From Nocardioides sambongensis (GTDB taxonomy: Bacteria > Actinomycetota > Actinomycetes > Propionibacteriales > Nocardioidaceae), in contig NZ_CP041091.1 of the NCBI RefSeq assembly GCF_006494815.1, positions 2,928,501-2,992,500 on the forward strand: DNA of 64,000 nucleotides, read 5' to 3'. The notes under the pieces are model-generated. The model worked only from the letters and a program-made list of their open reading frames with translations. It had not been told where the DNA came from and made no database searches. Shown piece by piece: positions 13,469 to 40,578 of the stretch. Position numbers and translations under genes: made by a program. How positions within the stretch are numbered: the stretch's first letter is position 1; each line of letters begins with the position of its first letter.

Positions 13469-16080
13469 TCAGGTGCCGGTGACGTCCAGCACACGCCCCG
13501 CGGCGCTGAACCGGATCCGCATCGGCACGCGCTCCCGCTTCTTCGTCCGGGCACAGATCGTGTACGTCGTACCGAGCCGCTGCCAGGGTTGCCCCACCGC
13601 ACGCAGCACCTGCTCGTCGCTCATCCCGACCCGGACCCGCTGGCGGATCACCGACGGTCGCCGTCGCAGCCCCGGGTTGCGGCAGGAGTCGGGGGCCACG
13701 CCGTAGGTCCGCTCCCACATCTGCAGGTAGGCCTCGGCGCCGCGCGCCATGTCGTCGACGATCTTCGCGCCGTCACCGGGGTGGTCGGACTCGGCGATCT
13801 GGCGCAGGTCCTCGATCCAGTCCGGGTAGAGGCCGTACTGTGCGACGCCGTCCACGTTGATGTCCCAGGTGCGCTGCCCGGCACGCTGCTGGGAGACCCG
13901 GACTCCGTTGAGGCCGGTGAACGGATACTCCACCGGGTTGGCCACGTCGGCACCCCGCGGGTTGCCCTGGGCGCCGAGCCCGTTGATGTCGGCCCCGAAC
14001 CCGAAGCCGAAGTAGAAGTTGCGGTCGGCCCACTCCAGGTGACGCCGCCACTTGGCGACGAACCCGGTCGAGTCGCCCGCGTAGGGGGTGATGAAGCCGC
14101 CGCCGGCGTAGATCCGGGGGTAGGTGTCCGGGGTGGACCAGGAGTGGCTGGAGATCACTCCCGGATAGCCGAGGTCCTCGATCACGTCCATCGACGCCTT
14201 CCGCGCCTTCACGCTGAGGTGGTCCGGGTCGAAGATGATCCGGCGGTCGGCCAGCGACCCGATGGTGTGCACGCCGAGGTCGGTCAGGCCGCGCTTGTTG
14301 CAGTGCAGCGGCGTCCCGTAGAGGGGAAGCGCCGGCAGGATGTCGCCGAAGAGCTGGCCGATCGCGCCGAACAGTGCGTCCTGCTGTCCACCGCTGATGT
14401 CCGGGAGCGCCAGCTGGGTGCGGTCCGCGCTCTCCCCGTCAGCGGGCTCGCAGTGCTCCATCCGCCAGAACGACCCGGTCTCCAGGAAGTTGGCGAGGTT
14501 GACCGCGATCCCGGTGGCGCCCGCGTCGCCGGCCACCCCGCGAGCGCGTTGTCGAACTTGTTCACCAGCTCCATCTGCCGCACCCCCATCGCGTGCAGCT
14601 CGTCGAGCGAGGCGTCGATGTCGGCCGCGTTGCAGGCGGGGAGGTCCCGCCCAGCACGGTCTTGTAGGTGCAGCCGAACGGGATCGAGGTCTCCACCCCC
14701 ATCACCACGGCCATCTTGCCCGCGTTGATCACCCGGCGCGCCTGGTAGGGGTCGGTGACGATCCGGTAGAACCCCGCCCCGGGCCGCCGTACTGGGCGTC
14801 GATGTAGTCCTGCATCGCGTACATGTCACGGGCCTGGAGCCGCACCGAGTCCATGTCGTCGCACGAGTTCCTCCGGAGCGGGTAGAGCTGGCACAGCTGG
14901 TTGTTCTCCACCAGCAGGTTCACGAAGATCCGCTGCCCGCCGCGCCAGGCCCGCTCCAGCCACCTCCAGTAGGTGCCCTCGTGGGTCAGCGACTCCGGCG
15001 AGGGCCAGTCCCGGAACGTCGGCCAGCCGACCGGGTCGTGCGTCGGGTTGCCGGACAGCACCGCCTCGAGCAGGGCGCCGTTGCCGCCGGTCAGGGTGTG
15101 GTCGGGGCAGTCCTCCAGCGCGAACGGCGCACCGTAGCTGTGCCACGGACGGCCGCAGTGCACCTTCCCGCCGAGGAACTCGAACGCCATCCCGTGGGTG
15201 TGCGCGTCGATGTAGCCGCGCACCTCCTGGAAGTCGGTCACCCCGGCGTGCGGCCGGCCGGCGACGTTGACCTTCGCCTCCGGATAGCCGGCGCAGCCGG
15301 AGGTACGACGCAACGCGAACCCGGTCGGCGTCCCACCGACCTCCAGTCGACCCGAGGCCACCCGCAGCCCGCCGTCGGGGAGCCGGAGCTGGAAGCGCGT
15401 GCCGTGGCGTCGTACGGTCCAGTCGGCGGCGGGACTCGGCTCGGCCGCGATCCGGACGCCGGAGCGGGTGTCGGCCAGCTCGCCGGCGGCGGTGTGCAGC
15501 AGGTAGCCGCCGAGCCGGGTGGCCTTGAAGAAGAACGGTGCGGCGCGTCCGGCACCGACCGCGCCCACCGCGACCTCCTCGCCCTGGCGGACCAGGTAGC
15601 CGCCCGAGGGCGCCCGCAGCGTGTAGCAGCCGTCGGCCATCGCATAGCGGCTCTGCGGCACCAGGGCCCGCGACGCCCGCACCGGCGCCGTACGCAGCCG
15701 CGGGTCGGGCAGGGCCCGCTCCCGGTCGACGTAGGCGACGGATCGGCGACGCTCGGCGGCGGTGGTCGGGTCGGTGGCCTCGTCCCCACGGTCTCACCGC
15801 GGGAGACCAGGTTCTTGGTGGCCGGGTCGTCGTGCCGGTGCGGCCCGGTCCCCGGCGGGTCGACGTGCGGCAGGCCCAGTGCGGCCTTGGCCGCCTCGTC
15901 GGCCTGGACCAGGTCGACGGTGCGCCCGGTCTGGGTGGTGGGCACGGTGGTGACCACCGCCAGCACTCCCCCGGCCAGCACGAGCGCCGTCCCGATCCGC
16001 ATCGCCGCCGCCCCACGCCGCACACCGGTCGTCGGTGTCGGTGCCGTCGGTGTCGCTGCCTGGTTCTCCCGTGTGGTCAT
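13469..16080 (-). CDS. Secreted metal-dependent hydrolase-like protein with N-terminal beta-trefoil-like domain (four frameshifts)
   Basis: About 871 residues after repair of four single-base breaks at C-runs 15784-15787, 14777-14780, 14646-14648 and 14536-14539. It starts with a TM or signal-anchor stretch (MRIGTALVLAGGVLAVVTT) and a Pro/Thr region. It then has a trefoil/fascin-like segment (CYTLRAPSGGYLV, then FFFKATRLGGYLLH). A large domain follows with possible metal ligands in DAHTHGMAF, LHCNKRGLTDLG, FDPDHLS and VISSHSW, which recall amidohydrolase or M19-type TIM barrels. The last about 70 residues (VRVGMSDEQVLRAVGQPWQRL) look like an SmpA/OmlA-type fold. It is probably exported and cell-wall or membrane associated. 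The substrate is unknown. All repairs are single G/C insertions, so the real gene is probably intact. Confidence 0.65.
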
Positions 16081-26727: not shown

Positions 26728-27264
26728 TCAGGAGATCGTGTCGACCTTCCAGGTCCCGTCCTCCGCGACGAGGTGGAACCGGTACTGCTCCCGGTGCTCG
26801 GCGCCGTCCATCCGGCAGACCACCACCGCGGTCGCCGTCGACTCGTCGACGGTCTCACCGCCCAGGGCCCAGTCGAACCGCTCGGGCAGCGCGGCGGTGC
26901 ACTCCCCGTTGTGGTCGAGGAAGGTGTCGGTGACCACCGCCATCGCGGCGGCGCAGTCGCCGTCGGCGATCGCACGGAGCAGCGTCTCCACCGTGGCGCC
27001 GGGGGTGTCCTCGGGGAGCGGCGCCGGCGCCGTCCCGCCGGCCGTCCCGTCCGTCGCCCCGGGCGAGCCGTCCGACGCGCCCGGCGTGGACGCGCCCGCC
27101 GTGCTCCGGGACCGGTCGCCGGCCGCTGGGTCGTCCTCGGCGCCGCCGAGCGCCACGACGGCCACCAGACCGAGCAGCACCACCCCGACGGTCAGCGTCG
27201 CCCAGATCGCCGGACGCATCCGGCCTCGGGGCTCCTCGCCGCGGTCGACGTCGTGGTCGCTCAC
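26728..27264 (-). CDS. Single-TM protein with Ser/Thr/Pro linker and extracytoplasmic NTF2/DUF4878-like domain
   Basis: A 178-residue protein: short charged cytosolic part, one TM segment (about 19-41, IWATLTVGVVLLGLVAVVAL), a Ser/Gly/Ala/Pro linker and an about 90-residue globular domain ending WKVDTIS. The globular part (TPGATVETLLRAIADGDCAAA, then C and WKVD) has the same plan as the paralogs at 38-40 kb. It sits in a same-strand run with the two membrane proteins upstream and the CDF exporter downstream. Envelope location is clear; function is unknown. Confidence 0.72.
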   Translation of the reverse strand: MSDHDVDRGEEPRGRMRPAIWATLTVGVVLLGLVAVVALGGAEDDPAAGDRSRSTAGASTPGASDGSPGATDGTAGGTAPAPLPEDTPGATVETLLRAIADGDCAAAMAVVTDTFLDHNGECTAALPERFDWALGGETVDESTATAVVVCRMDGAEHREQYRFHLVAEDGTWKVDTIS

Positions 27265-27302
27265 GCTGCGAGCCTAGGTCCGGTCCCCAATCCGCAGGGG
27301 GC

Positions 27303-28160
27303 TCAGCCCCGCGCCCTCCGCGACCAGTACGACGCCAGCAGCAGCACGATGCCCACCGCGAGCGCGACCAGGCCGATGTTGCGTGCGTGCGGGCCCAGCG
27401 ACTCCAGCACCACCTCGGTGATCAGCCGCACCAGCCCGGACCGGCCCTGCTCGGCCTCCTCCGCGGCCCGGTCGCTGAGCGGGCCGGAGGCGAGCATGGT
27501 GACGCCGGCCGCGAGAGCGATGCCGAGGCTCCCGAAGCCCGCGGTGCGCAGCCGCCCCCGGACGCCGGGGGCGATGACGACGGCGGCCAGCAGCAGCCCG
27601 CCGACCACCCACGGTCCGATCCGGGCGACGTCCTCGAGGAGCAGGTAGTTGTCGCGCTGCTCGAGGAGGGTGGACTCGCGCACCAGCGGCACCTCGAGGG
27701 TCATCTCGGGCAGGCTCAGCGCGGAGAGCCCCTGGCCGGCGAGTCGTTCCAGGACGTCCTGGAAGAGCGGGCTGATGTCGATCCGCACCCAGGCGTCGTC
27801 GTCGGCGTCGGTGCCGTCGTGCGCCAGGGCCATGAACTCGGCGTGCAGGTCGCGGTTGGCCTCCCGCCAGAACTCCGGGAAGCCCGGGCTCCGCACCACG
27901 GCCTCGGCCGCGTCGGCGACCTGCTGGTCGACCTGGTCGGGCAGGGCGAAGGGCAGGTTCTCCTCCAGCGCCGCGACGGTCGCGACACCGAGCTCGTCGG
28001 CGAGCTCGTCGCGCAGCTCCGGTTCCTCGGCCAGCGGGGCGACGGTCTCCACGTAGGCGTCGACGTCGCTGGTGCGCTCGTAGCCCCAGGCGGCCGTGAT
28101 CACGAACGGTGCGAGCACCGTCGCCACCACGACCAGGGCGGCGGCGAAGAATGCTCGCAC
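27303..28160 (-). CDS. Integral membrane protein, large extracytoplasmic loop
   Basis: A 285-residue protein beginning with GTG 28160. TM1 (about 3-27) is followed by an acidic extracytoplasmic region of about 150 residues (28-180; YERTSDVDAYVETVAPLA), then three TM segments near the C-terminus and a basic end (SYWSRRARG). The layout matches actinomycete membrane proteins of unknown function. The start is 1 bp after the stop of the DUF2510 protein gene (TGA-G-GTG), so translation is coupled. Confidence 0.75.
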   Translation of the reverse strand: MRAFFAAALVVVATVLAPFVITAAWGYERTSDVDAYVETVAPLAEEPELRDELADELGVATVAALEENLPFALPDQVDQQVADAAEAVVRSPGFPEFWREANRDLHAEFMALAHDGTDADDDAWVRIDISPLFQDVLERLAGQGLSALSLPEMTLEVPLVRESTLLEQRDNYLLLEDVARIGPWVVGGLLLAAVVIAPGVRGRLRTAGFGSLGIALAAGVTMLASGPLSDRAAEEAEQGRSGLVRLITEVVLESLGPHARNIGLVALAVGIVLLLASYWSRRARG

Positions 28161-28161
28161 C

Positions 28162-29211
28162 TCAGCGCGCTCCCGGTGCCCGGTCGGGCTGGATCAGGTC
28201 ACTCACCCTCGGGGAGGAGGAGTCGTCGCAGTCCTTGGAGTTGCACTCGTCGGAGACGAGCCAGTCGCCGTCCTCCTTGGCGAGGTGGATGAACGCCGGG
28301 TCGGTGCTCTTGGTCTCGCCGTCGAGCTCGTCGTCGATGTAGTCCTGGTTGTCACCGGTGTACTCGGTGGTCACGTCGAACTCGACGATCGCCTTGGAGT
28401 CGGTCTCGTCGTGCACCTCGACGACCTCGGAGGAGTAGTCGATGTCGTCCTGGATGTCCTCGATCGACTCGCCGTAGGTGTCCTCGAACTGCTGGCCGTA
28501 CTCTCCGAAGTCCTCGGCCGCCTCCTCCTGCTTGTCGCCGAGCTCCTTGCAGGAGTCGACCTCCTCGGAGTCGAGGGCCTCCTTCTTGCGGTCCTCGGTG
28601 AGCAGGCCGCACGCCTCCTCGTAGTCGTCGTCCAGGATCGCCTCGACGTAGTCCTTCGCCGTGTCCTCCGGGCTGTTGCCGGAGAGGAGCAGGAACCCGC
28701 CGATGCCGCAGATCAGCAGGAGCAGCGCGGCGCCGCCGGCGGCGAGGCCGATCCAGAGGCCCTTCTTGCTTCCGCCGCTCGAGCCGCCGCCGTACCCCGG
28801 CTGACCGGGCGCGCCGTAGCCCTGCTGGCCGTAGCCCTGCTGGCCGTAGCCCTGTTGCGGGTAGCCGCCCTGCTGGGCGTAGCCGCCCTGCTGGTTCGGG
28901 TCGTAGCCCCCCTGCTGCGGGTAGCCCCCCTGCTGGGCGTAGCCGCCCTGCTGGTTCGGGTCGTACCCGCCCTGGCCGGCCGCGCCCGCCGCCGCACCGC
29001 CCGCCGCCGCACCGCTGCCGTGGTCGGCAGCCCGGTTCGGGGCGATCTGGGTGGGCTGGTCGTGCACGCTGCCACCGGCGCCCGCGCCACCGTCGGCGCC
29101 GGTCCCCGGCTGCGTGTGGTCGGTCCACTGGGTGCCGTCCCACCAGCGCTGGTTGCCCTGTCCGTCGGGGTACCACCCGGGAGGGGTCGAGGGCTGGTTC
29201 GGGTCGGACAT
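28162..29211 (-). CDS. DUF2510 membrane protein with GGY/QQ-rich repeats
   Basis: A 349-residue protein. DUF2510 is at the N-terminus (PPGWYPDGQGNQRWWDGTQW). Then come an Ala/Gly linker and a prion-like segment with two 20-residue repeats of GGYDPNQQGGYAQQGGYPQQ type and three GYGQQ units. One TM segment follows (about 150-175, GLWIGLAAGGAALLLLICGI). The extracytoplasmic domain of about 170 residues is very acidic, with four Cys (DSCKELG, DECNSKDCDD). Ribosome site GGAGATGCC before the ATG. It heads an operon with the next membrane protein. Function unknown; DUF2510 proteins are envelope proteins in actinomycetes. Confidence 0.82.
   Translation of the reverse strand: MSDPNQPSTPPGWYPDGQGNQRWWDGTQWTDHTQPGTGADGGAGAGGSVHDQPTQIAPNRAADHGSGAAAGGAAAGAAGQGGYDPNQQGGYAQQGGYPQQGGYDPNQQGGYAQQGGYPQQGYGQQGYGQQGYGAPGQPGYGGGSSGGSKKGLWIGLAAGGAALLLLICGIGGFLLLSGNSPEDTAKDYVEAILDDDYEEACGLLTEDRKKEALDSEEVDSCKELGDKQEEAAEDFGEYGQQFEDTYGESIEDIQDDIDYSSEVVEVHDETDSKAIVEFDVTTEYTGDNQDYIDDELDGETKSTDPAFIHLAKEDGDWLVSDECNSKDCDDSSSPRVSDLIQPDRAPGAR
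28861..28980. repeat. 60-bp tandem direct repeat in the DUF2510 gene
   Basis: Positions 28861-28920 and 28921-28980 align base for base over 60 bp with few differences and code for the GGY/QQ-rich segment. A 15-bp unit (CTGGCCGTAGCCCTG) is repeated three times just before, at about 28813-28857. Confidence 0.85.
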
Positions 29212-29227
29212 GGCATCTCCTCGCGAA

Positions 29228-29261
29228 GATCGTCGTGGCAGATCGTGTGGTGGCGGATCGT
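29228..29261. promoter_or_regulatory. Three GATCGT repeats upstream of the DUF2510 operon
   Basis: GATCGT occurs at 29228, 29241 and 29256, the last two inside a 15-bp direct repeat (GTGGC(A/G)GATCGTGTG-like). They lie 17-50 nt upstream of the DUF2510 start. They may be tandem operator sites; this is pattern evidence only. Confidence 0.25.
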
Positions 29262-29302
29262 GGGCCATCCTCGCACGCGCGGTGCCGACCCTGCCCGCCC
29301 CG

Positions 29303-30285
29303 TCAGCGTTGCGGACCGGGGAAGAGTCCGGCGACGAACTCGAGCTTCTCGACCACGCGGTCGGGGATCACGAAGGGGTAGACGTCCGCCTTCCCCATCG
29401 AGCGGTTGATCTGGTTCAGCGCGATCGAGAACGGCACCCAGACGCCGCGCACCAGGTCGCCGAACGAGGAGAACGCGGACGGGTCGACCGAGAGGAGACC
29501 GTGCTCGGCGGCGGTCTCGCAGGTGTCGGAGATGTGCAGCACGTGGGCGAACGTCTCCGCGAAGTCCTCGAACGGGTGCATCGTGGCGTAGGTGCTGATG
29601 TAGGACTGCTCCCAGCCCTCCGGCGCACCCTCGGCGTAGTGCCGGTCGATCGCCGCCTGGTAGTCGGCGGTGTCGTCGCCGAACAGCTCGCGGCACCGGG
29701 CCACCTGCTCCTGGTCGCCGGACTGCAGCAGCCCCATCTGGACGAAGTGCCCGGTCTCGTGGCGCAGGTGGCCGAGCATGGTCCGGTACGGCTCGCCGAG
29801 GTCGACCCGGATCCGCTCCCGGCGGGCGTCGTCGGACTCGGCCAGGTCGATCGTGATCACCCCGTCGGCATGGCCGATCACCACGTCCTCGCCCGCCTCG
29901 GCGCTGGAGGAGAGCAGGTCGAAGACCAGGCCGTCGGTGGAGATCCCTCGCGCGTCGAGCTCCACCAGCAGGTGGCGCTTGGCCGCCTCCGCGTCCGGGA
30001 GCTGCCCCATCCCTCGGCGTCGGTGTCCGCGGGTCGGGTGCGGGTCAGGTCGCAGGCCGAGCACTGGCCGCCCTCGTGCCGCGCCAGCCAGGTGCACCCG
30101 GTCAGGTTCAGGTTCGCGCAGACGTGCCAGACCAGCCCGTCGGCGTCGACGTACCGGCCCGCGTCGTCGACGGGGACGATCTCCCGCTCGGCGCGGGAGA
30201 AGCCCAGCGCGCTCCCGCAGGAGTAGCACAGCGAGTTCTCCAGGTAGAGCTGGTTGCCGCAGGCGCGGCAGCGGAACGACTTCAC
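29303..30285 (-). CDS. Zinc-ribbon plus zinc-binding metallopeptidase (one frameshift)
   Basis: About 327 residues after one G is restored at 30011-30013. The N-terminus has two Cys pairs (CRACGNQLYLENSLCYSCGS) and a further Cys set (CANLNLTGCTW, CSAC) forming zinc ribbons. The C-terminal domain has HETGHFV as the HExxH zinc site and the acidic helix EDFAETFAHVLH, as in the putative zinc-binding metallopeptidase family (PF15887). GTG 30285 overlaps the stop of the transglutaminase gene (GTGA), so it is the last coupled gene of the ligase operon and may process or release its product. Confidence 0.83.
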
Positions 30286-31232
30286 CCGCGGTCTCCCTTC
30301 CTCGTGGTCGGCGCCGGGCCGGTCGGCCCGGCGTCCTGGGTACCGGTACCCAGTGGCGCCACATCGACCGAGACCGTCAGCGTGGAGGTGCTCGCCTCGG
30401 TGAAGATGACGCCTTTGACCGGCGGTACGTCACCGTAGTCGCGCCCCCAGGCCACCGTGACGTACCGGTCGTTCTGCCACTGGTCGTTGGTCGGGTCGAG
30501 CGAGAGCCACTCCTCCTCCCCGAGCCAGACGGCGAGCCAGGCGTGCGACGCGTCCGCGCCGACCACCCGCTCCTTGCCCGGCGGCGGGTCGGTGGCCAGG
30601 TAGCCGCTCACGTAGCGGGCGGCCAGCCCGTGCGCCCGCAGGCCGGCCAGCGTGAAGTGCGCGAAGTCCTGGCAGACGCCCGCCCGGCGGTGCAGGATCT
30701 CGGGCACCGTCGAGGTGACCGTGGTGGCGGTGGCGTCGTACTCGAAGTCGGTGTGGATCCGGTGGATCAGCTCGGTCACCGCCTCACCGACCGGACGCCC
30801 CGGGGTGAGCGACGCGGCGGCGTACTCGCGCGCCCCCGGGTGCATCGGCACCGCCGGGCTGGCCAGCGCGAAGTCGGTGGCCCGCCAGGCACCGGGCGCG
30901 AGCGGGTCGACCAGCGGGCGATTCGCCTCCCACGGCCGGGCGAGCAGGTCGGCGCGCGGCTCAGGGGCGACCACCTCCACCTCGCCCTGCCCGGTGATCA
31001 CCAGCTCCGTGTGCGCCTCGACGACCTGGAAGTAGGTGACCCGGTTGCCGTGGAAGTCGACCGAGGTGGAGAGGTCGGTCGGCTCCGGCCGCAGCCCCAC
31101 CCGGTACGGCGCCTCCGCGGCCCCGACCCGTTGCCAGGGCAGCTCGCGCGGGACCAGGTGCGCCACGCCCAGGCTGTCGGTGACGTCCTCGTCGTAGGTG
31201 TAGGTGGTGTGGTGGGTGACCTGGTATCTCAC
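30282..31232 (-). CDS. Transglutaminase-like (SLL1525-type) cysteine protease family protein
   Basis: A 316-residue protein with an N-terminal beta domain (RYQVTHHTTYTYDEDV, typical of Bact_transglu_N) and a transglutaminase core with the triad Cys in RAGVCQDFAHF, His in DASHAWLAVW and Asp in SLDPTND. These enzymes hydrolyse or exchange amide bonds. GTG 31232 overlaps the alpha-E gene stop by four bases and is preceded by GAGGAGG. It belongs to a fixed set with the ATP-grasp/alpha-E protein. Confidence 0.88.
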   Translation of the reverse strand: MRYQVTHHTTYTYDEDVTDSLGVAHLVPRELPWQRVGAAEAPYRVGLRPEPTDLSTSVDFHGNRVTYFQVVEAHTELVITGQGEVEVVAPEPRADLLARPWEANRPLVDPLAPGAWRATDFALASPAVPMHPGAREYAAASLTPGRPVGEAVTELIHRIHTDFEYDATATTVTSTVPEILHRRAGVCQDFAHFTLAGLRAHGLAARYVSGYLATDPPPGKERVVGADASHAWLAVWLGEEEWLSLDPTNDQWQNDRYVTVAWGRDYGDVPPVKGVIFTEASTSTLTVSVDVAPLGTGTQDAGPTGPAPTTRKGDRG

Positions 31233-33711
31233 GACACCTCCTCCTCGACGACCGCGCGGGTCTGCAGCGAGCCGAACGGCCGGGGACGCGGGCCGGTGGC
31301 GAAGTGCAGCGCACCGGCCGCCTCGGTGATCCGGCTGACCTGCGCCTCCACCGAGTCGAGGAACCCGGTCAGGTTCGGCCGGTCCGCACCACCGATCGCG
31401 ACCAGGGTGGCGGAGTCGGTCGCGGCGACCTCCGCGATCAGCTCGTCGAGCAACCGTTCGGGTCGGGTGGAGCCGGTCGAGGCCTGCTGGGCGGCCAGGT
31501 GGCGGGCCGCCTCGGTCAGGCTGAAGGTCAGCGACCGCGGGTTGTCGCCGTCCATCAGCAGCAGGTCGAGGACGCCGGCGGGACGCACGTAGTCGCGGTA
31601 GCGACGGCGGTGGGTGACCGCGCTCTCCGAGCTGGCCAGCACCGCGCTGAGCACCTCGCGGTCCACCTCCAGCCCGCGGCGCACGGTGACCACCCGGAGC
31701 AGCCGGCACAGCTGCAGTGCCCGCTCCAGGTGCCGCCCGAGGCCGATCATGTGCCAGCCCGGGTCGCGGATCATGCTCGCGGTGACCCCCTGCAGCGAGA
31801 GCACCCCGGCCAGCATCCGGCCCGCGGACTCGCCGATGGCATGGCTGTGCGGGGAGGCGCGCAGGGCCGACCCAGCGCGGGCGGTGATGCCGAAGACCCG
31901 CCACACGTCGAGCGAGAGCTGGTCGCGCACCCCCGCCAGCGCGTCGCGCAACGCGGAGAGCGACTGCGCCGCCGAGCCCTCCCGGTCGGCGTCGAGCAGC
32001 ACCGAGCGGAACTCCTGGCCGAGGTCGTCGCTGCTGCGGCCGGCCAGCGAGGCCAGTACGCCGAGCATGATCTCCAGGCTCATCCCGCCGGTGGTGCGGG
32101 GGCGGGTGCGGTAGTCCTCGGCGAGCACGTGGGCGGCCAGCACCAGGCGCAGCATGTCCTCGGCCCGCTCGGCGTAGCGGCCGACCCAGAACATGTCCTC
32201 GAGGATCCGCGGGACCGTCGAGGGCGTGGACCGGACCGAGGTCATCGGCCGCACCTCGGCCAGCCCCTGGTCCGCCTCGGCGGCGCTCGACTTGAGCACC
32301 CAGACGTCCTTGCTGCCCACCGCGCGGCCGCCGTCGCGGATGCTGGCCATGCCCCCGAGCAGCGGACGGTAGGAGGAGCCGTAGCGCAGGGTGAAGGTGC
32401 GCAGGCTGATGTCGGCGGGCCGGGCCTCCCCCGCGACCAGGCCGGGGCCTGGGAGAGCGGCAACCGCAGCTGGCCGACGTAGCGGTGCGGCGCGGCCAGG
32501 ATCCGGCGGCGCAGCAGGTCCGGGGCGAGCTCGGTGATCTGCACCCCGGTGCCATCGGTGGTCCGGATCGCGAGCTCGTCGAGCCGGCCGAGCACGTGGT
32601 CCAGGCTCTCCGGGTCGCCGCACCACCAGGTCGGCACCGAGTCCAGCCGCAGCGCCTCCCCGAGCAGGTGCTCGCACATCGCGTCCATGTAGGCCAGCAG
32701 GCCGGGGTTCTCCAGCACGCCGGCACCCAGGCTGTTGACCACGCGGACCCGCCCGCGTCGTACCGCCTCGGCCAGGCCGGCCACCCCGAGCTGGGAGTCG
32801 CCGCGCAGCTCGAGGGGATCGCTCCAGGCGCTGTCCACCCGGCGCAGGATCACGTCGACCCGCTCCAGCCGCAGCGGCGTGCGCATCAGCACCCAGCCGT
32901 CGCGCACCACCAGGTCGCTGCCCTGGACCAGCGGGAAGCCGAGGTTGGCCGCGATGGTCGCCTGGTCGTAGAAGGTCTCCGAGTGGGACCCCGGGCTGAG
33001 CACCACCACCCGCGGGTCGGCCAGGTCCTCCGGCCCGGACTGGAGCAGCGCCGAGCGCAGCGCCCAGAGGTACGGCGCCATCCGGTGCAGGTCGGCCTCA
33101 CGGTAGAGCTCGGGCATCACCCGGGAGAGCACCTTGCGGTTCTCCGCGGCGTAGCCGAGGCCCGACGGGGCCTGGGTGCGGTCGGCGAGGACCCGCCACT
33201 CCCCGTCGGCGTCGCGGCCCAGGTCGGCGGCCGACAGCACCAGCGGGCGGGGGTCGATCGCGCCGCTGCGCGCCATGATCCGGGTGAAGCCGTTGTGCCC
33301 GTAGACCAGCGCCGGTGGCAGCACCCCGTGCGCCAGCAGGGTCTGCTCGCCGTAGAGGTCGACCAGGATCGCGTTGAGCAGCTCGGCGCGCTGGGCGAGA
33401 CCGATCTCCAGCGACTTCCACGCGGTCGCGTCGAGCACCAAGGGCATCGGGTCCAGCCGCCACGGCGCGGGCCGCTGGCCGGGGCGGGAGTAGGTGACGC
33501 CGTCGTCGGCGAGGAACCGGGCGATCTCGTCGTCGACCCGCTCCAGCTCGCGCGCGCTGATCGCGACGGCCACCTCCGCCAGCGGCTTCCAGCCGGGGCG
33601 CAGGCTGCCGTCGGGCTCGACCAGCTCGTCGTACCGGGGGCTCGAGGAGCCTGCGGTCGGGACGAGCGCAGGCTGGTGCAGGCCGGCGACGTAGTCGCGG
33701 AAGACGGTCAC
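31229..33711 (-). CDS. Circularly permuted ATP-grasp fused to alpha-E domain (one frameshift)
   Basis: About 827 residues if one C is restored at the run 32444-32447; without it the two halves are out of frame. Residues 1-490 are the DUF404/DUF407 circularly permuted ATP-grasp ligase (ARSGAIDPRPLVL; VVVLSPGSHSETFYDQA; VVNSLGAGVLENPGLLAYMD). The C-terminal half (about 520-827; LEDMFWVGRYAERAEDMLRL) is the all-helical alpha-E domain (DUF403). ATP-grasp amidoligases join a carboxylate to an amine with ATP. The repaired product is a fusion, as often seen in this group. It starts 4 bp after the DUF2126 gene and overlaps the next gene. Confidence 0.87.
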
Positions 33712-33715
33712 CTTC

Positions 33716-36700
33716 TCACCGCGGCGCCGGCACCCGCCGGAGGTCGAGGGTGTGCGGGTACTCCTGGTCCCCGGCGCGGTCGCGCAGCGCGGTCAGGGCG
33801 GCGACGTCGACGGTCCCGGCGGTGTTGCGCCGGGCCTCGAAGCGGCCGGCCCGGCGGGCCTCGGCCTCGTTGGCGTTGACCGGCGGGTGGTCGTAGGTAC
33901 GTCCGCCCGGGTGGACCACGTGGTACGTCGCACCGCCCAGGCTGACCCCGGCGTGCAGGTCGACCACGTCGAAGGTCAGCGGCGAGTGCACCGGGATGGA
34001 CGGGTGCAGGCCGGACCAGGGCTGCCAGGCCTTGTAGCGGACCCCGCCGTAGAACCCGTCGCCGGGAAGCCCGGGGACGGCGGTCGCGGTCGGTGTCATC
34101 GGCACGGGGACACCCTGACACGTCACCAGGTGCCGGTGCGGGTCGATGCCGGCGACGCTGACCTGGATCCGCTCCACCGAGGAGTCGACGTAGCGCGACG
34201 TGCCGCCGCCGGTGGCCTCCTCCCCCAGCACGTGCCAGGGCTCCACGCCCTGGCGCAGCTCCATCCGGATCGGGGCGCCGCCCCCGGCGCCGTCGGTGAC
34301 GTCGGAGAAGCCGATCCGGGGGAAGCGGAACTCGGTGAACGGGGCCAGCCAGTCCACGTCGAAGGCGATCCCGGCGGCGTTCAGGTCGGCGACGACGGCG
34401 GTGATGTCGGCGACCGCGCCCTGCGGCAGCAGGAAGTCCTCGTGCAACCGGGTGCCCCAGCGGACCAGCGGGCGCCGGGCGATGTCGAGCGGCTGCTCCC
34501 AGAACATCGCGACCAGGCTGCGCACCAGCAGCGCCTGGACCAGCGCCATCTGCGGGTGCGGCGGCATCTCGAACCCGCGCAGCTCCAGCAGGCCGAGGCG
34601 GCCGCGGCTCGAGTCGGGGCTGTAGAGCTTGTCGACGCAGAACTCCGCACGGTGGGTGTTGCCGGTCAGGTCGGTGAGCAGGTGGCGCAGGGCCCGGTCG
34701 ACCGTCCACGGCGCGACCGGGTCGCCCGAGGAGGCGGCCTCCGCGGCGATCCGGCCGACCTCGGCGATGGCGATCTCCATCTCGTAGACGGCCTCCGGGC
34801 GACCCTCGTCGAAGCGGGGCGCCTGGCTGGTCGGGCCGATGAAGCGGCCGGAGAAGAGGTAGGAGAGCGCGGGGTGCTGCTGCCAGTAGGCGATCAGGCT
34901 GACCAGCAGGTCGGGGCGGCGCAGCAGCGGCGAGTCGATCGGCGCCCGCCCACCCAGGGTGAGGTGGTTGCCGCCGCCGGTGCCGGTGTGCAGCCCGTCC
35001 AGGTCGAACTTCTCGCAGGTCAGGCCCGCGTGCCGCGCCTCGGAGTAGAGGCGGGTGACCAGGTCGCGCTGCTCGCCCCAGCTGCTCGTCGGCTGCACGT
35101 TGACCTCGACGACGCCCGGGTCGGGCGTCACCGACAGCGTGGTCAGCCTCGGGTCCGGCGGCGGCGGATAGCCCTCGACGACCACCGGGCACCCGGTGCC
35201 GGCCGCCGCGCTCTCCACGACGTGCACCAGGTCGACGTAGTCCTCGAAGCGGGTGGTCGGCGGCAGGAAGACGTGGACGTGCCCGTCGCGGGCCTCGAAG
35301 GCCACCGCGGTCCGGTCGGCGCCGCGCGGGTCGGCCAGCGCCACCGCCGGCACGCCGGGCTCCGCGGCCTCGCCCGCCTCCAGGTACGACGGCTGGGCCG
35401 GGGCCTCCGGGTCGACCCAGTCGATCGAGTCCAGCGGCAGTCGCAGTCCGACCGCGCTGGTGCCGGGGGTCAGCACCAGCCGGCCCCGGCGCAACCGCCA
35501 CACCGGCGAGGTCCAGCCGGTCTCGGCCAGCGCCAGCGGCACCACCCAGCCGGTCGGCGTGCGGACCTCCGCGTCGAGCCGGGCGAGCAGGTCGGTGGCG
35601 TCCTCGTCGAGTCGGTCGAGGTCGGTGTCGGGCGGGTCGCCGTACGGCTGGCGGACGTGGTCGACGAGCGCGGCGAACGGGTCCTCGAAGGCGGGGCGGA
35701 CCTGGCTGTCCGGCAGCGAGAGCAGGTGGGCGAAGCGGCGGGCCAGCTCCTCGGCCCGGGTGGCGGCGTCGGCCAGCGCGGTCCCCTCGTCCCACGGGTC
35801 GGCGAGCCAGGACGGCTCGCGCCACAGCGGAACGCCGTCGGCGCGCCACTGCAGGGCGATGCTCCACCGCGGCAGCGGCTCCCCCGGATACCACTTGCCC
35901 TGGCCCCGGTGGACCAGGCCGCCGCGGGCGAAGGTGTCGGTGAGCCGGTCGGCCAGCGCCGCGGCCAGCTCGCGCTTGGCCGGACCGTCGGCGTCGGTGT
36001 TCCACTCCGGGGTGGAGGCGTCCGCCATCGACACGAAGGTGGGCTCCCCGCCCATCGTGAGTCGTACGTCGCCGGCGACCAGCCGCTCGTCGACCGCGGC
36101 GCCGAGGGCGTCGATGCGCTGCCACTGCTCGTCGGCGTAGGGCGCGGTGACCCGGGGGTCCTCGTGGATCCGGGTCACCCGGTTGTGGAACGCGAAGGCG
36201 ACCTCGACGGGGTCGGTGGCGCCCTCGATCGGCGCGGCGGAGCTCGGGTGCGGGGTGGCGCTGAGCGGGATGTGCCCCTCGCCGGCGAAGAGGGCGCTGG
36301 TCGGGTCCATGCCGACCCACCCGGCGCCGGGGATGAACACCTCGGCCCAGGCGTGCAGGTCGGTGAAGTCCTCGGTGGGCCCGGCGGGTCCGTCCACCCC
36401 TTCGGTCGCGTAGGCGTCCGGGGCGAGCTGGACCAGGTAGCCGGAGACGAACCGGGCGGCCAGACCGTACTGGCGCAGCAGGCTGACCAGCAGCCAGGCG
36501 CTGTCGCGACACGAGCCGATCCCGATCCGCAGCGTGTCGTCCGGCGACTGCACACCCGGCTCCATCCGGACCGAGTAGGCCACGTCACCGTGGACGGCGG
36601 CGTTGAGGCCGGCCAGGAACTGCACGGTCGGGACGCCGTCGTCGGGCAGCGCGGGCAGCTTCTCCCGCCAGCGGGCCGTCTCCTCGGCCCCCGGCACCGC

Positions 36701-37057
36701 CCGCAGGTAGGGCGCCAGGTCCGCGGCCAACCCGGGCTCGTAGTCGAACGGGAACCGCTCGGCGTGCTCCTCGATGAAGAAGTCGAACGGGTTGATCACC
36801 ATCATGTCGGCGACCAGCCCGACGGTGATGTCCAGCTCGGCGACCTTCTCCGGGAAGACGAGTCGGGCCATCCAGTTGCCGAACGGGTCCTGCTGCCAGT
36901 TCAGGAAGTGGCCGGCCGGCTCCACCTTCAGCGAGTAGGCCTCGATCGGGGTCCGGCAGTGCGGAGCCGGACGGAGCCGCACCACGTGCGGACCGACCGC
37001 GACGGGTCGCTCGAAGCGGTACGTCGTCCGGTGCTCCAGTGCCACCTTGATCGCCAT
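33716..37057 (-). CDS. DUF2126 transglutaminase family protein
   Basis: A 1113-residue protein: N-terminal Bact_transglu_N (MAIKVALEHRTTYRFERPV), then the transglutaminase core with Cys in GIGSCRDSAWLLVS, His in DLHAWAEVFIPG and Asp in GMDPTSALF. A very long DUF2126 region follows (about 320-1113; RLTMGGEPTFVSM; GTGGGNHLTLGG; FIGPTSQAPRFDEG), which resembles glutamine-synthetase/amidoligase-type folds. It is the first gene of the four-gene operon and divergent from the BrkB-like gene. Known family neighbourhoods pair it with ATP-grasp/alpha-E proteins; the product is not established. Confidence 0.9.
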   Translation of the reverse strand: MAIKVALEHRTTYRFERPVAVGPHVVRLRPAPHCRTPIEAYSLKVEPAGHFLNWQQDPFGNWMARLVFPEKVAELDITVGLVADMMVINPFDFFIEEHAERFPFDYEPGLAADLAPYLRAVPGAEETARWREKLPALPDDGVPTVQFLAGLNAAVHGDVAYSVRMEPGVQSPDDTLRIGIGSCRDSAWLLVSLLRQYGLAARFVSGYLVQLAPDAYATEGVDGPAGPTEDFTDLHAWAEVFIPGAGWVGMDPTSALFAGEGHIPLSATPHPSSAAPIEGATDPVEVAFAFHNRVTRIHEDPRVTAPYADEQWQRIDALGAAVDERLVAGDVRLTMGGEPTFVSMADASTPEWNTDADGPAKRELAAALADRLTDTFARGGLVHRGQGKWYPGEPLPRWSIALQWRADGVPLWREPSWLADPWDEGTALADAATRAEELARRFAHLLSLPDSQVRPAFEDPFAALVDHVRQPYGDPPDTDLDRLDEDATDLLARLDAEVRTPTGWVVPLALAETGWTSPVWRLRRGRLVLTPGTSAVGLRLPLDSIDWVDPEAPAQPSYLEAGEAAEPGVPAVALADPRGADRTAVAFEARDGHVHVFLPPTTRFEDYVDLVHVVESAAAGTGCPVVVEGYPPPPDPRLTTLSVTPDPGVVEVNVQPTSSWGEQRDLVTRLYSEARHAGLTCEKFDLDGLHTGTGGGNHLTLGGRAPIDSPLLRRPDLLVSLIAYWQQHPALSYLFSGRFIGPTSQAPRFDEGRPEAVYEMEIAIAEVGRIAAEAASSGDPVAPWTVDRALRHLLTDLTGNTHRAEFCVDKLYSPDSSRGRLGLLELRGFEMPPHPQMALVQALLVRSLVAMFWEQPLDIARRPLVRWGTRLHEDFLLPQGAVADITAVVADLNAAGIAFDVDWLAPFTEFRFPRIGFSDVTDGAGGGAPIRMELRQGVEPWHVLGEEATGGGTSRYVDSSVERIQVSVAGIDPHRHLVTCQGVPVPMTPTATAVPGLPGDGFYGGVRYKAWQPWSGLHPSIPVHSPLTFDVVDLHAGVSLGGATYHVVHPGGRTYDHPPVNANEAEARRAGRFEARRNTAGTVDVAALTALRDRAGDQEYPHTLDLRRVPAPR

Positions 37058-37200
37058 GGGGACACCCTAGGGAACGGGGCGGCAGGACGGGTTTCGTCGC
37101 GGTGACGTCCTCGCGGTCCCCTGCATCCCAGAACCCGGTCCTCGGTGTCGGTAGCCTTCACCCGACCACCGCGCCCGGAACAGACGAAGGCAGACGCAGC

Positions 37201-38157: not shown

Positions 38158-38895
38158 TCAGCCGGCCTCGCGGTCGATCTTCCACACACCGCCGACCCGC
38201 TCGAGCACCAGCGTGGTGGTGTACTCCTCGTCGACGCCGGCGACCGCGGTGGTCACCGGCACCCGGGCGGTGTCGCCGTCGACCGTAGCGGCGCCGATCC
38301 GGAAGTCGATCTGGTCGAAGTCCCCACCGTCGAAGGTGTCCGGGTCGCAGCGGCCGTACTCGCGCAGGTAGGCGTCGGTGACCCAGGTGTCGGCCTCGGT
38401 GCACCTGCCCGCGATCACCGCGTCGAGATAGGCCTGCAGCGAGGCCTCCGGGGTGCCCGCGGCGAACTTCTGGCCGCTTCCTCCGGGATCGGTGGGCTGC
38501 GTCGGCTGCGTCGGCTGCGTCGGCTGCGTCGGATCGGTCGGCTCGGTCGGCTCGGTCGGCTCGGTCGGATCGGTCGGCTCGGTGGGTTCCGGGTCGGCCG
38601 GGTCCGTCGGCGCGCCGGACGACGTCGCGCCGTCGCCACCGGCGCTGGTGTCCTCGTCGTCACCGCCGGTGAGGACCAGGACCAGGACGACCGCGCCGAC
38701 CAGCACCACGGAGGTGATCGCGGCGAGCACGATCCAGAGCGTCTTCCTCGGGCCGGGCGGCGGTGGCACCGGCACCGACCAGCCGCCTCCCGGTGGCCCC
38801 TGCGGGGGTCCCGGGGGTGGCGCCGACCAGCCGGGAGGCGGTCCCTGCGGCGGGCCGGACGGGGGCCCGGTGGGCGGTGGCGGCGGAGTGCTCAC
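38158..38895 (-). CDS. Pro-rich single-TM protein with extracytoplasmic NTF2/DUF4878-like domain (paralog A)
   Basis: About 245 residues from the GTG at 38895 (MSTPPPPPTGPP), chosen because the neighbouring paralog starts the same way. The cytosolic part is Pro/Gly-rich with PPQGPP units and one TM segment (about 53-75, LWIVLAAITSVVLVGAVVLV). Then comes a run of TEP/TQP/TDP tripeptides, and a globular domain (TPEASLQAYLDAVIAGRCTE, WVTDAYLREYGRCD, GGVWKIDREAG). That domain has the Cys pair and closing WKID found in paralogs B and the 26.7-kb protein. Envelope protein of unknown function. Confidence 0.75.
   Translation of the reverse strand: MSTPPPPPTGPPSGPPQGPPPGWSAPPPGPPQGPPGGGWSVPVPPPPGPRKTLWIVLAAITSVVLVGAVVLVLVLTGGDDEDTSAGGDGATSSGAPTDPADPEPTEPTDPTEPTEPTEPTDPTQPTQPTQPTQPTDPGGSGQKFAAGTPEASLQAYLDAVIAGRCTEADTWVTDAYLREYGRCDPDTFDGGDFDQIDFRIGAATVDGDTARVPVTTAVAGVDEEYTTTLVLERVGGVWKIDREAG
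38490..38590. repeat. 9-bp repeats encoding the Thr-Pro linker
   Basis: GGCTGCGTC-type and GGCTCGGTC-type 9-bp units are repeated about ten times between 38490 and 38590, encoding (T-[EQD]-P)n in the linker of paralog A. Such units change copy number easily. Confidence 0.7.
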
Positions 38896-38988
38896 GACTT
38901 CCTCACGACTGGCTCGGGGCTTGCTCACGGACGGGGCGGACGATCGCCGACGGCGGTCGCCCCGGCCCCTACCCCGTCGCGCGGCTGC

Positions 38989-39988
38989 TCACTCGTCGTC
39001 GTCGATCTTCCACACGCCGTCCTCCTTCTTCAGGGTCAGCGTGCCGGTGTCGCTCTCGCCGCGGTAGCTGATGGTGACCCGCACCGTCGCGGTGCCGCCG
39101 TCGATGGTCGCGTCGCCGATGTCGAACCGGTAGCGCGCGACCTCGTCCGGGTCGAGCTCGTCGACGGTGCAGCGGCCCTCACGACGCAGGTAGGCGTCGG
39201 TCACCCACTTCTCCGCCTCGACGCAGTCGGCGGCGCGGGCGGCCTCGACGTAGGCGACGATGGTCGCCTCCGGGGTGCCCTCCGGGAAGTCCGGGAGGTC
39301 GGTGGAGGCGTCGGTCGGGCTGTCGGTCGGGCTGTCCGTCGGGTCGGTGGCGTCGGTCGGGCTCTCGGTGGGCTCGTCGCCCTGGTCGGCGTCGGCCGGC
39401 CCGTAGGCGACGACCTCCCACTCCCGCTCCTCCTCGGTCAGCTCGAAGGAGTACTCCTCGGTCCCCGCCTCCGAGGTGAAGGTGACCGGTACGACGGCGC
39501 TGCTGCCGTCGATCTCGGCCTCACCGACCTCGGCGGTGACGTCGCCCGAGGCCAGCAGCGCCCAGTCGTCGCTGGTGCAGACCTGGTCCTCGAGCGGGTC
39601 CTCGAGGTGGTCGTCGGCCGCCTCGCAGTCGTCGGCCTCGGCCGCGTCGATCACGGCCTGGACGACCTTCACCGGGTCGCGGGAGACGGCGTCCTCCTGG
39701 GCGTCGTCGTCATCGCGCAGCAGGAGCACCAGCAGCAGCACCCCGACGATGAGCAGCACCGCCAGCAGTGCGCCGAGGATGATCCAGATCGCCTTCTTCG
39801 AGCCCCTCCGGGCGGCGGCGGGGGTTGCGTCGGCACCGCCCAGCCACCGGGCGGTGGCCCCTGCGGAGGACCGCCCGGCGGGGCCCCTGCGGCGGACCGG
39901 AGGGCGGGCCTGCGGGCGGGCCTGCGGGCGGACCGGAGGGCGGGGGCCCTTGCGGCGGACCAGGGGGCGGTGGCGTCGGCGTACTCAT
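38989..39988 (-). CDS. Pro-rich single-TM protein with two tandem NTF2-like domains (paralog B; two frameshifts)
   Basis: About 333 residues after one-base repairs at the runs 39880-39883 and 39803-39806. N-terminus MSTPTPPPPGPPQGPPP, then PPGGWAVPTQPPPPPGG, KKAIWIILG and a TM segment ending LLLVLLLRDDDD. Outside lie two domains of the same family: one with DCEAADDHLEDPLEDQVCTS, the other after a TDS/TDP linker with DCVEAEKWVTDAYLRREGRC and ending GVWKIDDDE. The second is closely like paralog A. This is a domain duplication within a tandem gene family. Confidence 0.72.
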
Positions 39989-39996
39989 GCTTCACC

Positions 39997-40578
39997 TCAC
40001 GGGTTCGCGGTCAGGTCGTCGAGATAGCTCTCGAAGTAGGACTCCCACTCGGAGGGATCGGTGGGGAAGTCGCTGAGCAGGTCGGTCGGCAGGTCCGTCA
40101 GGAAGTCGGTCGGCAGGTCCGTCGGCAGGTCCGGTGGCAGGTCCGTCGGGAAGTCCGTCGGGTCCGGGCTCGCCGGCTCGGTGCTCTCCTCGGTGGGGGT
40201 GTCCTCGGTGGCCTCGCTGCTGGCGTCGTCGCCGCGGTCCGTCTCGTCCTCGTCGCCGTTGCCCACGATCAGGAACGCGGCGATCACCACCGCGGCCACG
40301 ATCACCAGCGCACCGATCACCCCGAGGATGATGACGAGGGTCTTCTTGCTGTTGCCGTCGCCGGGCGGCGGGGGGCCCGGCGTCCACGGTGGCTGACCGG
40401 GTCCGCCGGGGCCACCGGGTCCGCCCGGTCCGCCCGGTCCGCCGTAGCCCGGCTGCTGCGCGCCGTAAGGAGGTGGCGGCGGCTGCTGCGGAGCGCCGTA
40501 CGGCGGGGGCTGCTGCGGGTAGGGCGGCGGCTGCTGCGGCAGCTCCGCAGTCGGGTGGTCAGGGTTCGAACCGGACAC
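39997..40578 (-). CDS. Pro/Gly/Gln-rich single-TM protein with TDLP repeat tail (paralog C, tail-only)
   Basis: A 193-residue protein with the same front end as paralogs A and B: a cytosolic PQQPPPYG/GGPGG region, SKKTLVIILGVIGALVIVAAV TM segment (about 85-108). The globular domain is replaced by a Thr/Asp/Leu/Pro tail (TDFPTDLPPDLPTDLPTDF) of about 50 residues and a short acidic end (SYFESYLDDL). Head gene of a three-gene run, 8 bp before paralog B. Either a truncated family member or a distinct short form. Confidence 0.7.
   Translation of the reverse strand: MSGSNPDHPTAELPQQPPPYPQQPPPYGAPQQPPPPPYGAQQPGYGGPGGPGGPGGPGGPGQPPWTPGPPPPGDGNSKKTLVIILGVIGALVIVAAVVIAAFLIVGNGDEDETDRGDDASSEATEDTPTEESTEPASPDPTDFPTDLPPDLPTDLPTDFLTDLPTDLLSDFPTDPSEWESYFESYLDDLTANP

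Follow-up and report, generated by a model that had tools for sequence, protein, structure and literature searches.

A putative amide-ligation operon of four genes in Nocardioides sambongensis, with a metallopeptidase partner and a predicted nitrogen-control box

What do four coupled genes of Nocardioides sambongensis make, and what does the zinc-ribbon metallopeptidase at their end have to do with it? The genes run along the minus strand from 37057 to 29303 of a 64,000-nucleotide stretch (positions 2,928,501-2,992,500 of a 4.43-Mb one-contig genome, completeness 99.98%), the whole of which we call the window. We give a probability of about 45% to the reading that this operon is half of a cytosolic system for making and recycling amide bonds, switched on at nitrogen shortage. 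The reading draws on gene content, co-occurrence across genomes, promoter boxes, predicted folds and conserved catalytic residues.

An earlier note on this DNA had described four coupled genes forming a predicted amide-ligation set with an extra peptidase. The coupling and the domains were confirmed: genes 1 and 2 are 4 bp apart, the other junctions are 4-bp overlaps (31229-31232 and 30282-30285), and each product has Pfam matches. The genes are not all intact, since genes 2 and 4 are broken in frame. Gene 1 (33716-37057) encodes a 1113-residue fusion of a papain-like transglutaminase with DUF2126 (Bact_transglu_N, Transglut_core and PF09899). Gene 2 consists of a circularly permuted ATP-grasp piece (32242-33711, homology to about 32430; CP_ATPgrasp families PF14403/PF04174, E = 6.5e-119 for PF14403; PDB 3n6x, E = 6.7e-58) and an alpha-E piece (31229-32677; PF04168, E = 1.5e-58). 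Gene 3 (30282-31232) is a second transglutaminase with Bact_transglu_N and Transglut_core domains and Cys, His and Asp motifs GVCQD, SHAW and DPTN. Gene 4 starts at 30285, inside gene 3, with a zinc ribbon (29878-30285; PF10005, E = 4.2e-17), followed in another frame by a Peptidase_Mx zincin core (29303-30364, homology from about 30010 downward; PF15887, E = 2.9e-84).

This content matches the ligase/alpha-E/transglutaminase set predicted by Iyer et al. in 2009, as described in the available parts of papers that cite it (PMC5666114, PMC3597751, PMC6376114), and the earlier note's phrase 'undescribed pathway' was to that extent overstated. That note had also missed the two frame breaks, a ligase fold in DUF2126, the probable status of the operon as half of a system and a nitrogen-control box. 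DUF2126, reportedly a component of the 2009 system, has a glutamine-synthetase (GS) fold in a structure model of moderate confidence, with weaker support from Foldseek. By fold it would be a ligase, giving the operon two putative ligase types. 'Transglutaminase' names a fold only; the reaction of these papain-like domains may just as well be the cutting of amide bonds. As had been claimed before, we saw no precursor or transporter gene within the operon, and its products contain no strongly hydrophobic segment (highest 19-residue Kyte-Doolittle mean, 1.62).

The peptidase is a genuine partner of the ligase set. The survey took in 246 genomes from the phylum, 148 from the family and 80 loci gathered with the peptidase alone as query; other phyla were sampled through plasmid records. 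In the phylum, Peptidase_Mx scored above the cut-off in 16 genomes, a count that leaves out four with weaker matches, and DUF2126 occurs in 11, every one of which also has the peptidase. In the family, 36 genomes have DUF2126, 63 have the peptidase and 34 have both (Fisher p = 8e-14, species kinship ignored). The two genes lie within 12 kb of each other in 33 of these 34, and the peptidase is downstream on the same strand in 32. The family co-occurrence and linkage counts reject the idea of a chance neighbour. The earlier note had named lack of conservation of the peptidase with the set as grounds for refutation, and the 34 of 36 family and 11 of 11 phylum genomes speak against such a lack. 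The 80 loci comprise 43 with the whole set, nine with the set minus gene 1 in the stretch, one short contig with gene 3 and 27 with the peptidase alone. Because the whole set recurs in 43 loci, the operon is not a chance arrangement.

Gene order is not fixed in this association. Two loci (L107 and L108) have the peptidase adjoining gene 1 in a differing order. Among 25 plasmid records covering at least 80% of gene 1, the peptidase adjoins gene 1 in nine from Caballeronia and lies near it in one from Halomonas, which makes at least 10 of 25 among the matches listed.

The HExxH zinc motif of the peptidase, read as HETGH in the window frame, is invariant in 60 sequences (His176, Glu177, His180), as are Tyr233 and Glu240, seven residues apart, whose catalytic roles are presumably those of M34-type zincins. 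In a fold predicted from an intact relative, the core appears to resemble such zincins. NCBIfam gave only a sub-threshold match, and the nearest named matches of the window peptidase are from Nocardioides. Compared with the Pro-Pro endopeptidases (PPEP), which are zincins of the M34 type, it lacks a hydrophobic leader, carries an N-terminal zinc ribbon and belongs to the sequence family PF15887.

Are the four genes a complete system? The family genomes suggest that they are not. Alpha-E genes there were split at 250 bits into class A (72 genomes) and class B, the fused window type (60 genomes); in the class A loci inspected, ATP-grasp, alpha-E and transglutaminase are separate genes. DUF2126 is found only alongside class B (36/36), class B is accompanied by class A in 59 of 60 genomes, and the peptidase by class A in 62 of 63. 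Physical linkage follows class B: the peptidase is no more than 10 kb from it in 53 of the 54 family genomes having both, and that close to class A in no genome. Both classes and gene 1 share one cluster in Caballeronia, Burkholderia, Enterobacter, Halomonas and three actinobacterial loci. Because of this nested co-occurrence and these joint clusters, we regard the window operon as probably half of a larger system, seemingly dependent on the class A locus, which in this genome (L016) lies at about 690,970-694,260, some 2.3 Mb away.

One such cluster, on a 90-kb plasmid of an Enterobacter roggenkampii blood isolate (L098, 9501-30827), holds class A, class B and DUF2126 between bordering insertion sequences; no peptidase is annotated or matched in that stretch. 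In the family sample, one genome (G339) gave a partial alpha-E match only.

In this genome's class A locus, the transglutaminase (L016, 7969-8811) has neither the catalytic Cys motif nor the His motif, an indication that catalysis can be carried by the window enzymes. Losses within the genus vary: one copy lacks the His motif (L115), one the Cys motif, with the His motif not found (L116), and one both (L118). The class A enzyme is not a pseudoenzyme in general, since among 20 other copies 18 retain the Cys motif, 17 the His motif and 17 both. Motifs were read by regular expression, and mis-hits (e.g. L106, L108, L109) were left out.

When might the system be used? A GlnR-type box, GTCAC-N6-GAAAC, lies on the minus strand at 37091-37106, 49 bp ahead of the gene 1 start, and its position is kept in relatives. 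Of 34 regions upstream of gene 1, 22, the window's among them, have the strict pattern GTNAC-N6-GNAAC at a distance of 38-39 or 49-50 bp from the gene (300 shuffles: mean 0.18, maximum 2). Throughout the 80 loci it has 32 matches, 24 of them at gene 1 promoters (23 loci, one palindromic site being counted twice). The looser pattern GNNAC-N6-GNNAC at 36-52 bp precedes gene 1 in 26 of 34 cases (null 0.27) and the class A ATP-grasp gene in 13 of 21 (null 0.19); 17 of 1735 predicted open reading frames (ORFs), gene 1 among them, have a box so placed. Three half-sites, spaced by 11 bp, are present at the same promoter distance in this genome's class A locus. Across the whole genome, we inspected the ORFs beside 53 of the 54 strict matches and put ten downstream genes to Pfam. 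These ten include an ammonium transporter (amtB), glnA and a glutamine-synthetase-like gene, all of them usual targets of GlnR.

We infer that GlnR would bind these predicted boxes, control both loci and activate rather than repress them. The box pattern agrees with published GlnR boxes in the parts of the sources available to us (the Table 2 consensus of PMC10704036; PMC3662644). The same 34 gene 1 promoters contain no NtcA-type box. Control by sigma-54 in Proteobacteria was considered and rejected, as a strict site was found in A. caldus only among the 12 plasmid loci scanned. There (L097) the cluster adjoins ntrBC and glnA, and a sigma-54 consensus starts at 14885, 68 bp before the annotated ATP-grasp start at 14953; this surrounding, too, hints at nitrogen control. 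This plasmid locus also holds two Anbu-like genes, insertion sequences and two strict sigma-54 sites, and its gene 1 homologue matches in two pieces.

Related sets have been tied to nitrogen elsewhere, according to the portions available of the papers concerned. Anbu, the proteasome-fold peptidase of the classical operon, is raised in nitrogen-limited P. putida (PMC5666114, PMC6376114), and in marine metagenomes the families track urea genes (PMC3597751). As a side observation, the accessible text of PMC8407117 names, as one of the candidates for nodule competitiveness in Sinorhizobium meliloti, a regulatory region belonging to a COG2308 (ATP-grasp) gene.

Put together, the proposed mechanism is as follows. 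The GS-fold DUF2126 and the ATP-grasp enzymes would use ATP to convert a carboxyl group to an acyl phosphate and then couple it with an amine. Working by way of an acyl-enzyme, the transglutaminase domains of papain-like fold would exchange amide bonds or cut them. Trimming or recycling of the product, which in the classical operon has been proposed as Anbu's task, would here fall to the zinc-ribbon metallopeptidase. The class A ATP-grasp/alpha-E/transglutaminase locus would supply the other half, and GlnR would control transcription of both loci.

As to what is made, we prefer a small compound of gamma-glutamyl or isopeptide type to a protein tag, since a neighbour survey that covered ORFs of 120 residues or more, and that a short tag would escape, revealed no tag gene. 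Tagging would have the ligases add a short peptide or amino-acid tag in nitrogen shortage and the metallopeptidase remove the tag or its remnants, much as a deubiquitinase does. It has been proposed for the Anbu version (in the part available of PMC6376114); ligase, peptidase and papain-like domains fit a cycle of attachment and removal, and the nitrogen-control box fits protein turnover in starvation. Besides the missing tag gene, however, the operon shows neither an unfoldase nor a compartmental protease, and we think tagging unlikely. We are similarly doubtful of a bolder proposal, a two-locus, GlnR-controlled starvation system of actinobacteria, alternative to the Anbu version, in which proteins or metabolites would receive a peptide or amino acid from the two ligase families and lose it again to the M34-like zinc peptidase.

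Several observations weigh against the proposed nitrogen-controlled half-system. No member has a known substrate, product or phenotype. In the available parts of the Anbu papers, one laboratory found Anbu without peptidase activity and in no stable complex (PMC6376114), while another obtained no different Anbu form on co-expression and reports Anbu operon expression as unchanged under various other conditions (PMC5666114). Many strict whole-genome box matches must be chance, because the 54 compare with 23 for a reversed control. Seven of the ten downstream genes put to Pfam are a hydrolase, an MFS transporter, a class III aminotransferase, a Bmp-type binding protein, a 2-hydroxyacid dehydrogenase, an electron transfer flavoprotein (ETF) gene and one without a family. 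The loose box at 36-52 bp is absent from 8 of 34 gene 1 promoters, from 8 of the 21 for class A and from 8 of 9 loci in which the first gene is apparently ATP-grasp. The 19 lone peptidase genes examined lack it too (top score 5.2; 95% null level 7.4). As for the partnership, DUF2126 occurs without the peptidase in two genomes (G351, G361), whose copies of the set are more divergent. Of the 63 peptidase genomes, 29 are without DUF2126, nine lack class B and one (G316) lacks any alpha-E. No peptidase was found near gene 1 in Granulicella or in several proteobacterial plasmid records.

Some of these points would suit a metallopeptidase that is an independent starvation protease, sharing only its regulation and location with the ligase set. 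The 27 peptidase loci without the set in their stretch, some of them on short contigs, fit that idea, as does the absence of the box before lone copies. DUF2126 is missing from 19 of 20 set-less genomes searched, and on plasmids of Azospirillum, Sphingobium and Hymenobacter the peptidase adjoins glgX, Hsp20 and a glycoside hydrolase. Yet all 19 genomes that lack DUF2126 and have the peptidase away from the set still have an alpha-E locus. In the phylum, alpha-E is found in 16 of 16 above-cut-off peptidase genomes vs 44 of 246 overall, and adjacency to the set is retained across the differing gene orders. We judge an independent protease improbable.

We also looked for a conserved extra operon partner. 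The sole candidate, a downstream gene with a CPWA motif that follows the peptidase in 28 of the 80 loci (e.g. L028, 10749-11642), is confined to Nocardioides-type loci and was not found in the window; other frequent neighbours resemble ordinary synteny. By its motif, this gene looks glutathionyl-hydroquinone reductase-like. If so, it would fit a glutathionylspermidine-like pathway for thiol- or polyamine-peptides, in which ATP-grasp makes an amide conjugate and the papain-like domain hydrolyses it. The sole PDB sequence match of the ATP-grasp piece, 3n6x, is named a putative glutathionylspermidine synthase. That name is itself putative, however, the CPWA-motif gene is restricted as described, and actinobacteria of this kind have mycothiol as their main thiol. 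Such a pathway strikes us as very unlikely.

Do the frame breaks mean that the operon is dead in this strain? On the minus strand, the ATP-grasp and alpha-E ORFs of gene 2 change frame near 32,430 (32400-32470), and the zinc-ribbon and peptidase ORFs of gene 4 near 30,010 (29995-30020), with G-rich runs at both breaks. Query ORFs switching frame number 36 at the gene 2 break and 88 at the gene 4 break. In relatives, the two domains share a single frame in all 52 loci holding both parts of gene 2 and all 79 holding both parts of gene 4; further same-genus genomes are continuous in 5/5 and 6/6 cases. Intact copies of both genes therefore exist, and we reject a programmed frameshift; N. caeni (L020) is one Nocardioides type strain that has the set intact. 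Homologous ORFs also switch frame elsewhere in the window, at about 17,010 (2 queries), 41,252 (8) and 42,216 (9), in a scan in which 306 of 640 100-bp bins were testable; weaker signals of 1-5 queries near 30,300, 33,750, 42,300, 42,900 and 56,100 were set aside. Because relatives are continuous and the window has such breaks at other places too, assembly indel errors are the likely and simplest cause, with recent mutation a less likely one. A decaying pseudogene cluster would account for breaks in two of four genes. Against decay, conservation beyond the breaks is about that of the other parts (against Nocardioides sp. GY 10113: alpha-E 78%, peptidase 83%, gene 1 83%, ATP-grasp 81%), catalytic motifs are retained and frame switches are also found at other points of the window. 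We hold decay to be scarcely credible.

The operon's surroundings contain, as judged by eye, predicted single-hydrophobic-stretch proteins with proline/glutamine/glycine-rich ends on both sides (26728-29268 and 38158-40578).

ATP-grasp/alpha-E/transglutaminase systems are widespread, and the literature found, in the portions available, names no confirmed substrate since the 2009 prediction. The nitrogen box on both loci points to a growth condition and the nested co-occurrence to a partner locus. The metallopeptidase adds a second hydrolase, of an unrelated kind, and knowing its substrate would show what the product is. A long-open question thus becomes directly testable in an ordinary soil genus.

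How does the operon compare with known systems? The ligase set is an already known prediction; what looks new is the peptidase as a partner, the dependence on two loci and the nitrogen box. As far as searched, open-licence PubMed Central (PMC) literature holds no report of this peptidase, or of GlnR, with the set. The RimBK/Rlo operons of Pseudomonas likewise pair an ATP-grasp protein with a peptidase, and Rlo also has a transglutaminase-like protein; in the accessible part of PMC12239564, however, the peptidases are aspartic, the transglutaminase is membrane-bound and inactive, and alpha-E and DUF2126 go unmentioned. The E. coli glutathionylspermidine synthetase/amidase, which works in a like manner, combines ATP-grasp synthesis with papain-like amide hydrolysis. 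Its papain-like family is a different one (CHAP, in the part available of PMC10318531).

The closest likeness is to the Iyer-type amidoligase/Anbu system, with which the window shares the circularly permuted ATP-grasp, alpha-E, DUF2126, a Cys-His-Asp transglutaminase and a peptidase in the operon. That system has an NTN (N-terminal nucleophile) peptidase, whereas the window operon has a zinc-ribbon metallopeptidase, probably M34-like, in its place; in A. caldus (L097) this place is held by a proteasome-fold peptidase, Anbu-like by context. A single A. caldus Anbu query had no match in this genome at E <= 0.001 and matched 3 of 20 chosen genomes, so the window operon is a variant and not the Anbu operon itself. 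The two peptidases do coexist in one genome (G060). The tie to nitrogen that has been reported for P. putida Anbu has a predicted, box-based counterpart here, in a genome where the system occupies two separate loci with GlnR-type boxes. The Anbu operon (ATP-grasp, alpha-E, transglutaminase and Anbu) corresponds to this genome's class A locus minus Anbu, whereas the window operon is distinguished by its fused ATP-grasp/alpha-E, its DUF2126 and its metallopeptidase.

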